In this document: piece by piece, positions 9,211 through 18,446 of the stretch
Layout: each line of letters opens with the position of its first letter
Numbering within the stretch: the stretch's first letter is position 1
Assembly: GCF_000429585.1 (NCBI RefSeq)
Contig: NZ_AUCD01000018.1
Coordinates: 1 to 32,924, forward strand
Length of the DNA stretch: 32,924 nucleotides
Source: Atopococcus tabaci DSM 17538
GTDB lineage: Bacteria; Bacillota; Bacilli; Lactobacillales; Carnobacteriaceae_A
Direction: 5' to 3'
Notes under the pieces: generated by a model
The model's database searches: none
What the model saw: the letters and a program-made list of their open reading frames with translations, nothing else
What the model was told of the DNA's origin: nothing
Program-made: the position numbers and the translations under genes

Positions 9211-9283
9211 CAAAAAAAGGGCAGAGCCAACAAGCTTCCTCTCACCCCAGAAGAAGTATACCTTGAAAGCTCACGCCCAACCG
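9211..9283 (-). promoter_or_regulatory. Structured leader of the ntp operon, possible attenuator
   Basis: In the predicted leader RNA, CTTCTTCT and AGAGGAAG (around 9235-9256) pair over eight positions with a six-base loop. A wider and partly exclusive pairing joins GGGC..GAGC (around 9270-9280) to GCTC.GCCC (around 9219-9226). That second pairing is followed directly by eight T on the minus strand, then the ntpF SD. The combination resembles an attenuator, but the long stem is imperfect and no known riboswitch or T-box motif was recognised. Confidence 0.35.
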
Positions 9284-14436: not shown

Positions 14437-15888
14437 TTATAAAATAGGAGATAACAAACGACTGAATGTTTGTTTGAATCGTTCCCACAGTGAAAAGTTG
14501 GCCATTATCTCATCTGTTAACAAGTAACTCCCTTCCACATCTTTAAAGAACAACACTTCCTGTTCTTGAGCCAATTGTTCATCATAGAGGAAGACATTGT
14601 TTTCAAAATTCAATTTAAAGCTTCGGATGTCAAAGTTGGCAGAGCCGATAGAGCAAAGTTTACTGTCGATGACAATCGCTTTTGAGTGAAGAAACCCTTT
14701 GTCATAAATATATATTTCTGCGCCTAACCTGGCTAATTCTGAAGCATAGTACAACGTCGCACGGTAAATGAATGGATGATCCGGTTTGTTTGGAATCATT
14801 AGTTTAACGTCAACTCCGGAAAAAAGCGCAATCTCCAAAGCTTCCATCACACCCTCATCGGGAACAAAATATGGAGTTTGAATATAGACGGATTCTTCTG
14901 CCATGTAGATCATTTTCAAAAAACCTTTTTTTATGGCTTGGATTTCTGTATCCGGACCGCTTGCGACTACTTGCATATCGGTCGTCCCTTTCAAAGGGGA
15001 AATCGGAAAGTATTCATTATAATACGTCAGCTTGTGGTGCTTGACCGATGCATTCCAGTCCATGATAAACCGTGTCTGCAACGGCAAAACGCCATTTCCT
15101 TCAATTCGTAAGTGCGTGTCCCGCCAATACCCCATGTTCTCGTATTCGCCCAAATAGTCATCTCCGACATTAAAGCCTCCTGTATAACCTACCTTCCCGT
15201 CAATCACCACTATTTTTCTGTGGTTTCTGAAGTTCAGCCTCAAGTTAAGGAGAGGAAATTTCGATTTGAAGGAAGGCTCTGCGTATCCCCCCAATTCACG
15301 CAACCTTTTGAACGAACGTGAACGGAGTGTTCGTAAACCAAACGAATCAAACAACACAGCCACTTCCACCCCGTTGGCTGCTCGTTCCTCCAAAGCTTCC
15401 AATAATCTGCTGCCTATTTTGTCCATCTTAAAAATATAGTACATAACGTGTACATGGTGTTGGGCTTTTGAAATATCCTCTATCAGGCGGTCAAACTTTT
15501 CTTCTCCGTCCGCAATAATGGAAACTTTGTTGCCTTTTGTCAGTACGGACCCGGTAGTTTCCAAAAAAAGACTTGCTAGCTCACGTGTTTTGGGCGCATC
15601 GATTGATTCGTCAAGCACTGGAGCATCTTCTGCGATTAATTGCTGTTGTGCTTCCACCAATTCCGGCATCCCGATCGTTTCTTGGGTGCGGATATCAAAT
15701 ATTTGTTCTTTCGATATTTTCCTGCCTATGAATAGATAAAGAATAAACCCAATCACAGGTAATAAATTCAATACAAGAAGCCATGCCCAAGTAGCCGCGA
15801 TGTCCCTTTTTTCTCTGAACACAGTAATGATGGCTAAAATTGTGTTTACTACCAGTATGAAAATTACAATATTTCGAACTATTTCCAT
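14437..15888 (-). CDS. cls: Cardiolipin synthase
   Basis: This 483-residue product is a phospholipase-D-type cardiolipin synthase, which joins two phosphatidylglycerol molecules. Two N-terminal membrane helices (about 5-23 and 33-55) are followed by two HKD motifs: His223-Lys225-Asp230 in NHRKIVVID and His401-Lys403-Asp408 in HSKAIVID. Length and order are typical of Firmicutes Cls. The start ATG follows AGGAGA. The gene lies 73 bases downstream of thiT with no clear terminator between them, so partial co-transcription is possible. Being next to opuC fits a role in osmotic stress but does not prove it. Confidence 0.95.
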   Translation of the reverse strand: MEIVRNIVIFILVVNTILAIITVFREKRDIAATWAWLLVLNLLPVIGFILYLFIGRKISKEQIFDIRTQETIGMPELVEAQQQLIAEDAPVLDESIDAPKTRELASLFLETTGSVLTKGNKVSIIADGEEKFDRLIEDISKAQHHVHVMYYIFKMDKIGSRLLEALEERAANGVEVAVLFDSFGLRTLRSRSFKRLRELGGYAEPSFKSKFPLLNLRLNFRNHRKIVVIDGKVGYTGGFNVGDDYLGEYENMGYWRDTHLRIEGNGVLPLQTRFIMDWNASVKHHKLTYYNEYFPISPLKGTTDMQVVASGPDTEIQAIKKGFLKMIYMAEESVYIQTPYFVPDEGVMEALEIALFSGVDVKLMIPNKPDHPFIYRATLYYASELARLGAEIYIYDKGFLHSKAIVIDSKLCSIGSANFDIRSFKLNFENNVFLYDEQLAQEQEVLFFKDVEGSYLLTDEIMANFSLWERFKQTFSRLLSPIL

Positions 15889-15961
15889 TCTCTGTCTCCT
15901 AATTTTTTGAATCAGGTTAATGTCGTCTCATGTCCCTGCCGATCAGTCATTGGGGCATTGT

Positions 15962-16507
15962 TTACTCCTCAAAAAACACCCTTGGGGTCGAGGCATGAAT
16001 AAAAATCAATATAAGTGCTGTAGCAATTGCCGTCACTAAAGCGCTGAGGCCATTAGTGACGAAAGAATAAACAATTGGACTCATCCCTTCAGGAGCGTAA
16101 CTTCCCCAGAAAATGACACCTGCAATGAAATGCCAAAAAAATCTTGCACCTGTTCCTAAAAAGGATGCTGCAACAATCCAGCTCCACACATGTTTTTTGT
16201 CTGCGGAAACCTGAATACGGGAGGAAACAATTCCGGCTGCTCCAGCAAAAGAAAACGCAATAAAGTATTCGATAAATCCTTGCAAGAATGTCAAAATGAC
16301 GGCATTTCCAAGTAAAAAGTGCAGCACTCCCCACAGAAATCCAGCGACAAAGCCGGCGGTCATGCCTCTTCTCAAGGCATAAAGCGTCAAAGGAATCATG
16401 CCCAACGAAAGAGTCAATGACGAACCGATGTTTGTAGGCAAAAGTGAGAGGACAATGGCCAGTGCTGCAACAATGGTTCCTTCAATCCATACCCTTATAT
16501 TGTTCAA
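15962..16507 (-). CDS. thiT: Thiamine ECF transporter S component (ThiT)
   Basis: This 181-residue membrane protein has about six helices and matches ThiT (YuaJ), the thiamine-binding S component of an energy-coupling-factor importer. FFWHFIAGVIFWGSYAP is the conserved ThiT signature near the thiamine site. The ATPase and T components must be encoded elsewhere. An open frame extends upstream to 16597, but that part is riboswitch RNA. The best start is TTG at 16505-16507, about five bases after GGGAGGGG, giving LNNIRVWIEG, which lines up with known ThiT N-termini. The SD is also the 3' arm of the riboswitch terminator. Confidence 0.9.
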   Translation of the reverse strand: MNNIRVWIEGTIVAALAIVLSLLPTNIGSSLTLSLGMIPLTLYALRRGMTAGFVAGFLWGVLHFLLGNAVILTFLQGFIEYFIAFSFAGAAGIVSSRIQVSADKKHVWSWIVAASFLGTGARFFWHFIAGVIFWGSYAPEGMSPIVYSFVTNGLSALVTAIATALILIFIHASTPRVFFEE

Positions 16508-16554
16508 AAAAAGCCCCTCCCTACAGCAGATTACCCTGCAGCAAAGGAAGAGGC
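16506..16554 (-). terminator. Riboswitch-controlled terminator before thiT
   Basis: GCCTCTTC pairs with the G-rich arm GGGAGGGGC, and an inner CTGCAG/CTGTAG stem extends it. Seven T follow on the minus strand. It stands between the TPP aptamer and thiT, so it is the expression platform. The 3' arm contains the thiT SD and the T run overlaps the TTG start. Confidence 0.7.
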
Positions 16555-16577
16555 ACATAAAAGAATGCATCACCAGT

Positions 16578-16658
16578 TGCAATCCCTGCATTCGCATTAA
16601 CGAACAGGTTCAAAGGGTCAGGACCGATTCCACTCTCAGCACGAGGCTCCCCTTTGCA
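16578..16658 (-). promoter_or_regulatory. TPP riboswitch aptamer (THI element)
   Basis: On the minus strand the conserved THI-box pieces appear in order: GGGGAGCC, GCTGAGAG, GACCCTTTGAACCTG, then TAATGCG and GCAGGGA. The P1 stem is closed by TGCAA and TTGCA at the two ends. It precedes thiT, so thiamine pyrophosphate would shut off thiamine import. It starts only 36 bases after the rnjB stop and I see no convincing promoter of its own. Confidence 0.96.
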
Positions 16659-16693
16659 CAGGCTGCTATTTCATGTTGTTTTGTATGACTTTT

Positions 16694-18376
16694 TTAGTTT
16701 TTCTTTCTCTTTCGGCTGCTGACTTCCATGATGACCGGAAGGATGATCGGACGACGGCGTGTTTGTTTGAAGAGGTATTTTCCAAGCGCATCTCTCATTT
16801 CCTGCTTCAACGTACTCCAATCGAATTGCTTCTCTTGAAGCATGTTTTCTACCACTTCTTTCACAATCTCACGGCTGTCTTCAATCAAATCGATGCTTTC
16901 TTTTACATAGACAAATCCTCGAGTCACAATTTGTGGACCTGACACAATGACTTTCTTTTTCCGGTCGATGGTGACAACGGCCACAAAAATTCCATCTTCA
17001 GACAGCATTCGGCGGTCCCGGAGAACAATGTTTCCAATGTCTCCAATGCCAATTCCATCAACCATGGTATTCCCAGCCGGCACTTGCCCTGCGGCATGCA
17101 TTTTCCCTTTTTCGTATGTCAGCACATCCCCGTTGCCGGCGATAAAGACATTTTGGTACGGAATCCCTACTTCATGTGCCAAATCTGCATGAGCCGCCAA
17201 CATCCGGTATTCACCTTGAACTGGGATGATGTATTTCGGCTTCAATAGGTTCATCATCAACTTCAAATCATTTGGTGTGGCATGCCCTGACACTTTCATG
17301 TTATCAAAAATTTTCTGCACCGTACCGCCTGCGCGATAAATTAAGTTTTCAGTCTGTGCGACTGTCACTTCCATAGCTGTCGAAGGGCTTGTCACGATGT
17401 AGACTAAGTCCCCTTCTTTGATATTGACTTGTTTATGAGAGCCGGTTGCCATTCGGTTCAAGGTTTTAATCGGCTCACCTGTTGAACTGGTTTCCAAAAT
17501 GATGATTTCATCATCAGAATATTTGTCCAATTTGTTCATAGGTACAATTAAATCTTCATCCGGGAGTTCCAGTTTCTTCAAATTAATGGCTATCTCCACG
17601 ATTTCTTCCAATTGTCTTCCTGTGATGAACACTTTGCGTCCAGAGCGGTGAGCTGCATCAAATACTTGTTGGATACGCAAGATGTTGCTTGCCACTGCTG
17701 CCACAATGATGCGGCTGCTGGTGTTTTGGAACACTTCTAAGACTTCTTCCGCTACACGTCTGTCTGACACGTTCTCAACAGGGCTTTCTGCGTTACCGGA
17801 ATCGCTCAACAAAGCAAGTACGCCTTCTTTTCCAATATCACTGATGCGCGAGAGATCTGTTTGATATGCCGGAGTGGCGCTTTGATCAAACTTAAAGTTT
17901 CCGGTATAAACAACATTTCCCTCTGAAGTTTTCAGTGCAATTCCCATAGAATCTGGAATACTGTGTGTGGTCCGGAAAAAACGTATCAAGGCTTGATTGA
18001 ACTCGATTTCAGTGTGTTCATCAATCACATGGTAATCGTCGAACGTTGTTTTCATGCCGGAATTTTCCACGAACAATTTTGCCAGCTCAATCGTCAACTC
18101 TGAACCAAACACCGGCACTTGGAAGTCTGCCAGGAAATACGGCAAGGCTCCGATTGCATCTTCATGACCATGTGTCAAGAAAACACCTGCAATACGGTTC
18201 CGATTTTCTTCTAAGTAACTGAAATCAGGAATGACTGCGTCGATTCCAAACAATTCATCTTCCGGGAACATCAGCCCGCAATCCAATACAAATAGTTCGT
18301 CATCTACCTCAACGACGTACATATTTTTTCCGTTTTCTCTGACTCCTCCAAGAGGAATAATCTTTATTTTTTCCAT
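16694..18376 (-). CDS. rnjB: Ribonuclease J2 (metallo-beta-lactamase/beta-CASP)
   Basis: This 560-residue product has the RNase J layout: beta-lactamase core, inserted beta-CASP domain and C-terminal domain. RNase J enzymes process and degrade mRNA from the 5' end. Three metal-ligand positions differ from RNase J1: HGHEDA at 69-74 has Ala where J1 has His, TGNFKFD has Asn160 where J1 has Asp, and PVQGEYRM has Gln387 where J1 has His. This indicates J2, a weak enzyme that works with J1. ATG at 18376 follows AAAGGG by eight bases; an in-frame GTG three codons earlier is poorly placed. J1 is not in the window. Confidence 0.9.
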   Translation of the reverse strand: MEKIKIIPLGGVRENGKNMYVVEVDDELFVLDCGLMFPEDELFGIDAVIPDFSYLEENRNRIAGVFLTHGHEDAIGALPYFLADFQVPVFGSELTIELAKLFVENSGMKTTFDDYHVIDEHTEIEFNQALIRFFRTTHSIPDSMGIALKTSEGNVVYTGNFKFDQSATPAYQTDLSRISDIGKEGVLALLSDSGNAESPVENVSDRRVAEEVLEVFQNTSSRIIVAAVASNILRIQQVFDAAHRSGRKVFITGRQLEEIVEIAINLKKLELPDEDLIVPMNKLDKYSDDEIIILETSSTGEPIKTLNRMATGSHKQVNIKEGDLVYIVTSPSTAMEVTVAQTENLIYRAGGTVQKIFDNMKVSGHATPNDLKLMMNLLKPKYIIPVQGEYRMLAAHADLAHEVGIPYQNVFIAGNGDVLTYEKGKMHAAGQVPAGNTMVDGIGIGDIGNIVLRDRRMLSEDGIFVAVVTIDRKKKVIVSGPQIVTRGFVYVKESIDLIEDSREIVKEVVENMLQEKQFDWSTLKQEMRDALGKYLFKQTRRRPIILPVIMEVSSRKRKKN

Positions 18377-18446
18377 TCTTTTCACCCTTTATAAGCTTAA
18401 TAAGCAATTTCTAAATATTTTTATCTACATCTTTACTTCTCACCCA

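Follow-up and report, generated by a model that had tools for sequence, protein, structure and literature searches.

The window, meaning here the whole analyzed stretch of 32,924 nucleotides from Atopococcus tabaci DSM 17538 (contig NZ_AUCD01000018.1), carries on its minus strand, in this order, the end of an RNase J gene (stop codon at 16696-16694), a thiamine pyrophosphate (TPP) riboswitch aptamer, a hairpin, a run of seven U, the thiT gene and a cardiolipin synthase gene. We were concerned with the short leader between the aptamer and thiT, in which the 3' arm of the hairpin, a computed transcription terminator, also holds the Shine-Dalgarno (SD) sequence of thiT, while the last bases of the U-run belong to a TTG start codon. 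The features are listed below in the direction of transcription.

16566..16663, minus strand: TPP riboswitch aptamer, Rfam RF00059, aligned to the full length of the model (1-105) and also matched in the scan of the organism's own genome
16647..16662, minus strand: putative antiterminator 5' strand, CCUGUGCAAAGGGGAG, formed by the 5' side of aptamer P1/P2 and the preceding bases (computed duplex, two-sided changes)
16654..16658, minus strand: 5' strand of P1, UGCAA (model alignment), pairing with 16582-16578 in the TPP-bound fold
16595..16597, minus strand: in-frame upstream ATG inside the aptamer, which opens the first-ATG reading frame and is not conserved as a start in the comparison of 57 leaders
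16578..16582, minus strand: 3' strand of P1, UUGCA (model alignment, pairing checked by folding)
16545..16554, minus strand: terminator 5' arm, GCCUCUUCCU, resembling an anti-SD sequence (computed hairpin)
16535..16552, minus strand: putative 3' strand of the antiterminator, sharing bases with the 5' arm and loop of the terminator (computed; 15 nt shared with the terminator 5' side)
16513..16522, minus strand: terminator 3' arm, AGGGAGGGGC, which holds the SD (computed hairpin)
16516..16520, minus strand: SD sequence GGAGG, 8 nt from the start codon, with 5/5 nt paired in the terminator
16506..16512, minus strand: terminator U-run (T7), whose final two T also begin the start codon (read from the sequence)
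16505..16507, minus strand: TTG start codon of thiT (from the sequence; same arrangement in Carnobacterium jeotgali, L010, and six further rows)
15962..16507, minus strand: thiT, 181 aa, S component of the energy-coupling factor (ECF) thiamine transporter (profile matches)
15888-14437, minus strand: cardiolipin synthase gene, downstream of thiT

The hairpin (16554-16513) consists of a 10-bp lower stem (16554-16545 with 16522-16513) and an inner stem, directly followed by T7. Together with the U-run it was computed at -24.6 kcal/mol, as compared with a mean of -13.7 kcal/mol for shuffled sequences (z -4.5), and only one of 200 dinucleotide shuffles was as good; a simple consensus terminator scan did not list it. 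The stem ends 5 nt before the start codon. The window thus combines three features of the dual-attenuation class of Barrick and Breaker (2007; PMC2258182), i.e., a computed terminator, a distance of at most 10 nt to the start codon and a ribosome-binding site (RBS) in the 3' side of the hairpin. The original prediction, that the 3' arm of the terminator is at the same time the SD of thiT and that the T run overlaps a TTG start, was therefore borne out, since all the elements are present and the orthologs agree.

The comparison with relatives drew on 40 named thiT loci, on the window's family, where 25 of 27 genomes gave 26 matches, and on the three TPP switches of the A. tabaci genome itself. 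Once the duplicates L026 and L047 had been removed, 59 different leaders were scored, among them the window and L016, whose aptamer lies below the Rfam cut-off. Automatic scoring placed at least 4 nt of the SD in the paired 3' arm of the terminator in 57/59 leaders; in 48 of them this holds for every SD base. The U-run, likewise found in 57/59, counts 5-8 T, ending 0 nt (51 leaders) or 2 nt (4) from the start codon or overlapping it (2), and the stem lay at most 10 nt from the start in the same 57. One further leader (L042) was mis-scored automatically and fits when read by eye, which gives 58/59, while L043 has no fitting start. The interlock extends from loci of Bacillaceae (L038 and L040, plus L042 when read by eye) to those of Enterococcaceae. 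Six additional loci (L065-L070), outside the Rfam check and the counts, were read by eye: L065 and L069 fit, L070 is a fragment, and no aptamer was visible upstream in the stretch of L067 that was examined. In L066 and L068 a TPP-like core precedes thiT, and these two loci may serve as a natural control for the interlock. The original prediction had named a different SD in an alignment of orthologs as its refutation, and the orthologs support it: most have the same kind of SD at the same position, but at least two members of the family (L066 and L068, by eye) have an SD outside the terminator.

The aptamer was found in a permissive Rfam scan with 53.8 bits (E 6.2e-10), i.e., 0.5 bit below the RF00059 gathering score of 54.3, and for this reason the scan of the window at the default threshold did not list it. 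Alignment to the covariance model revealed the conserved core of RF00059 (CUGAGA, ACCCUUUGAACCUG and the model's paired elements), with some non-standard pairs in the P3 region. Since the cut-off was exceeded at 59 of the 60 related loci submitted to Rfam (19/20, 20/20 and 20/20; the exception is L016), the window aptamer very likely belongs to this family, judging by sequence.

The likely ON-state partner of the terminator 5' arm, according to the computed pairing, is the 5' strand of the aptamer. The duplex of 16662-16647 (CCUGUGCAAAGGGGAG) with CUCUUCCUUUGCUGCAGG (16552-16535) was computed at -22.6 kcal/mol. Across 58 leaders (without L043; an initial run had been made without L043, L042, L002 and L016), the antiterminator energy averaged -19.4 kcal/mol with a leader's own platform versus -12.8 kcal/mol with platforms of other sequence classes, and 50/58 leaders beat shuffled platforms by more than 2 standard deviations. 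The counts of overlap, covariation, SD exposure and upstream ATG codons refer to 57 leaders (without L043 and L002). In all 57, the antiterminator 3' strand and the terminator 5' arm share at least 4 nt. Two-sided changes occur beside the conserved GGGG, e.g., at position -2 (A-U in 39/57, U-A in 17/57), the covarying pairs having been picked by energy, which favours pairing. Minimum-free-energy folds of the growing RNA passed from P1 (3/5 pairs; RNA ends at 16565-16553) through the antiterminator (16541-16517) to the terminator (from 16513). The SD responded in the computed folds as well: with 20 nt of coding sequence included, its mean unpaired probability in the 57 leaders was 0.04 with the platform alone and 0.53 with the antiterminator forced. 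A rise of at least 0.2 was seen in 54/57, and in the window the value went from 0.00 to 0.47.

From the elements, their overlap and conservation, and the computed pairing, we infer the following order of events in the cell. With TPP bound, P1 would hold the aptamer 5' strand, the terminator would form and the polymerase would be released in the U-run, leaving an RNA that ends at or before the start codon with its SD base-paired. Without TPP, the aptamer 5' strand (16662-16647) would pair with the terminator 5' arm (16552-16535) and block the terminator, so that transcription would continue and the SD would no longer be held by the terminator 5' arm. One pyrimidine arm would thus have two possible purine partners, AAAGGGGAG in the aptamer and the SD, and would choose between aptamer and SD, as it can pair with either. 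On this model we regard the element, with good confidence, as an OFF switch that responds to TPP and has an expression platform of the dual type, in which termination is expected to do most of the work. The earlier suggestion that a single hairpin governs both transcription and translation stands as architecture, which is computed and conserved; any dual control by it is putative.

Besides the choice of covarying pairs by energy, several results weigh against this reading. A leader's own platform beat every platform of the other classes in only 26/58 leaders. For RNA reaching the end of the U-run, the structure with the terminator (-54.4 kcal/mol) was 2.5 kcal/mol better than that with the antiterminator (-51.9 kcal/mol), and therefore the ON state must be kinetic, with the choice made during transcription. 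The fold of the leader to 16470 contains the terminator without P1, in energy models that ignore the ligand. Exposure of the SD weakened with more coding sequence: at 60 nt the means were 0.46 versus 0.04 and 50/57 leaders passed, with the window SD 0.29 unpaired, and at 78 nt, with the antiterminator forced, the window SD was 0.01-0.27 unpaired per base and mostly paired with coding RNA. In L066 and L068, although they come from the same family, the terminator is followed by a separate SD (by eye). Finally, an SD in a hairpin before a T-run also occurs at other genes of the A. tabaci genome (cf. below).

The translational layer is the only respect in which a switch acting on transcription alone would differ from the dual one; the two explanations share the architecture, and their odds overlap. 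Under transcriptional control alone, the compactness of the leader would let one purine arm be both stem and SD, and masking would have no regulatory effect since the terminated RNA carries no gene. That agrees with the poor exposure of the window SD when the ON fold is forced and 60 or 78 nt of coding sequence are included. It also agrees with the results on the Lactococcus lactis thiT leader, as given in the available part of PMC8862789: this leader responds to thiamine over a range of about 10-fold, its published primer shows U8 immediately ahead of AUG, with AAGGAG shortly upstream, and replacement of part of the U-stretch made expression constitutive and thiamine-independent, so that SD masking alone seems insufficient for repression in L. 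lactis. The mutation may, however, also have altered the hairpin or the spacing. The Enterococcus faecium thiT leader was scored "translational/transcriptional", though weakly (Table 1 of PMC12632268, a source seen in part), and the arrangement has been kept from Bacillaceae to Enterococcaceae, yet is absent in L043, L066 and L068. Because the published results on relatives are mixed, we put a transcription-only switch at somewhat under an even chance. The opposite case, a hairpin and U7 that do not terminate efficiently and act on translation only, appears very improbable. It accords with the silence of the consensus terminator scan and with the authors' own prediction of a translational switch for E. 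faecium thiT, in the part of PMC12632268 available; the 10-bp lower stem with U7 and its z of -4.5, the U-run kept in 57/59 leaders and the need for the U-stretch in L. lactis, at least in the accessible text of PMC8862789, argue for a working terminator.

As for the fuller version of the dual reading, we hold it to be possible, if rather doubtful: in Lactobacillales and also in some Bacillaceae, the conserved 5' strand of the aptamer before thiT might act as a decoy SD that frees the true one, the U-run might have been recruited repeatedly as a TTG start, and termination and masking might be truly coupled, with masking as a second measurable layer on read-through RNA. The family of leaders (57 scored) offers a test by simple mutants of whether a terminator-buried SD adds translational control.

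The start of thiT is a separate issue. The protein matches Pfam Thia_YuaJ PF09515 (E 2.8e-54; 184.4 bits versus a cut-off of 25.8) and NCBIfam TIGR02357 (E 7.8e-55; 185.7 bits versus a cut-off of 108.45), and the profiles begin at residues 37 and 35, respectively, of the long open reading frame (ORF), i.e., at residues 7 and 5 counted from the TTG. The first-ATG ORF begins at 16597, exactly 30 codons upstream of the TTG, and its extra residues correspond to aptamer and platform RNA. If this ATG were the true start, the aptamer would encode 30 residues of a longer protein. A mechanical ORF finder does choose 16597, and the frame is open for 34 codons before the TTG (the median over the 57 leaders is 17 codons). 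Against this, an in-frame ATG at any distance upstream occurs in only 18/57 leaders, in varying places, and one at least 20 codons away in only 2/57 (the window and L063); furthermore, no purine-rich SD was seen by eye in the 15 nt before 16597, the ATG lies within the aptamer, and the profiles begin just after the TTG. We therefore rejected ATG 16597, whose use as the start seems highly improbable, and, as supported by the orthologous sequences, take ThiT to start at a TTG drawn from the U-run, the 30-residue extension probably being due to chance. The false residues that a caller of the upstream ATG would add, and the TTG in the T run, had both been anticipated, and the call that an ORF finder gets wrong is hereby corrected.

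Among the 57 automatically well-scored leaders, the start codon is ATG in 53, GTG in two and TTG in two (the window and C. jeotgali L010). A stricter hairpin pattern, run each time in 295 genomes of the order, gave 15 matches for T-run plus G, 28 for T-run plus ATG and none for a backward control, though it does not match the window itself. Of the 15 T-run plus G matches, six have a TTG in frame with ThiT; in another six an ATG or GTG lies only a few bases away, and the remaining three (L111-L113) lack a CUGAGA core within 150 nt. A TTG within the U-run and in frame with ThiT is thus also present in L100, L101, L105, L106, L107 and L114, from four genus codes of the same order; L105 and L106 are apparently identical in the compared stretch, and in L107 ATG codons a few codons after the TTG are possible alternative starts. 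A quick protein tree with 68 rows (without L043, L002, L106 and L111-L113) requires at least five changes for the seven TTG rows, of which well-supported branches force one, and 12 of 500 label shuffles were equally low; the row nearest to the window, Lacticigenium (L006), has an ATG start. The idea that the TTG in the U-run is a peculiarity of the Atopococcus genome was rejected, as the arrangement recurs in other genera. A search of titles and abstract openings found no published description of TTG starts made from terminator U-runs, which does not prove their absence. The odc1 motif has a sequestered RBS and a UUG start (PMC8632094), and the parts of that paper and of PMC7724050 that were available do not treat a TTG inside a terminator U-run. 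L111 and L112 have an SD hairpin, a long T-run and an in-frame TTG before a membrane-like protein, with no CTGAGA within 150 nt.

The succession of SD, T-run and start codon was counted 32 times in the A. tabaci genome (28 sites, four counted twice by overlap) versus 10 times backward. Of the 27 sites that were read, 16 open an ORF of at least 60 aa, and in 9/16 the computed fold leaves none of the five SD bases unpaired. Three of these nine are TPP switches, so the SD-in-hairpin arrangement is not peculiar to riboswitch genes. At three other sites (L071, L079 and L098) a hairpin of -20 kcal/mol or lower pairs the whole SD and precedes a T-run at the start codon; judged by eye, the genes there look like xerC, a YfcC-like permease and radC. 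The interlock is present in each of the three TPP switches of the genome. One precedes a second thiT (G000:C43; L001, L005) that is 67% identical to the first and has an ATG start. Its leader resembles that of the window in its TPP aptamer (64 bits), its SD in the terminator arm and its T7, and differs in having the ATG after the T-run and a promoter-like TTGCCA-17-TATCAT upstream. In the third (L002 1253-1450, G000:C12) the SD likewise lies in the terminator arm, and the gene behind it is presumably YkoF-like. In the other 26 genomes of the family that were searched, 24 gave a single thiT match and two gave none. RNase J precedes the TPP switch and thiT also in Lacticigenium (L006) and 17 loci of the family (L048-L064; cf. 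window 14437-18385), and cardiolipin synthase follows thiT in these 17 as well as in L009 and L010; thus, the window copy of thiT seems to occupy the old location. No convincing sigma-70 promoter was found in the 110 nt upstream of the window leader (16664-16773; simple score 9.5), a score as low as that being reached by 6/24 leaders, while L009 and L010 reach 12.5. Transcription of thiT may come by read-through from the RNase J gene. Elsewhere in the window, a Na+ riboswitch aptamer (RF03071, 47.8 bits) lies at 9236-9282 on the minus strand.

Compared with known systems, the window is closest to the class of "dual transcription and translation attenuation" of Barrick and Breaker, who note that their reference 48 had predicted these mechanisms for TPP switches too (PMC2258182). 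As in that class, the RBS lies in the 3' side of a terminator near the start codon, and where their rule allows up to 10 nt from hairpin to start, the window has 5 nt and a start codon made in part of the U-run. A genome-scale analysis of attenuators from 2010 stated, in the portion available, that experiments had until then demonstrated no bifunctional terminator (PMC2965389). A review, so far as its accessible text goes, describes another dual TPP mode, RBS plus Rho, in other switches; strand exchange as such is a familiar feature of TPP switches (PMC10907184). The L. lactis RSthiT leader shares with the window a TPP switch before thiT and a U-stretch adjoining the start codon; unlike the window, its AUG follows the U-stretch, which in the available part of PMC8862789 is treated as a terminator and not as an overlap with the SD. 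E. faecium Ef02 (PMC12632268, likewise seen in part) also has a TPP switch before thiT, and both its transcriptional and translational fusions were affected; it differs in its weak response, assayed in E. coli, and was likened to the window by description, not by leader sequence. The layout is real and common to most of the relatives examined, but the type of switch has been described before, and from its sequence the window switch is a sound case of the dual-attenuation type; less familiar in it are the TTG start that a U-run supplies here and in other leaders, and the proposed competition between the aptamer strand and the SD.
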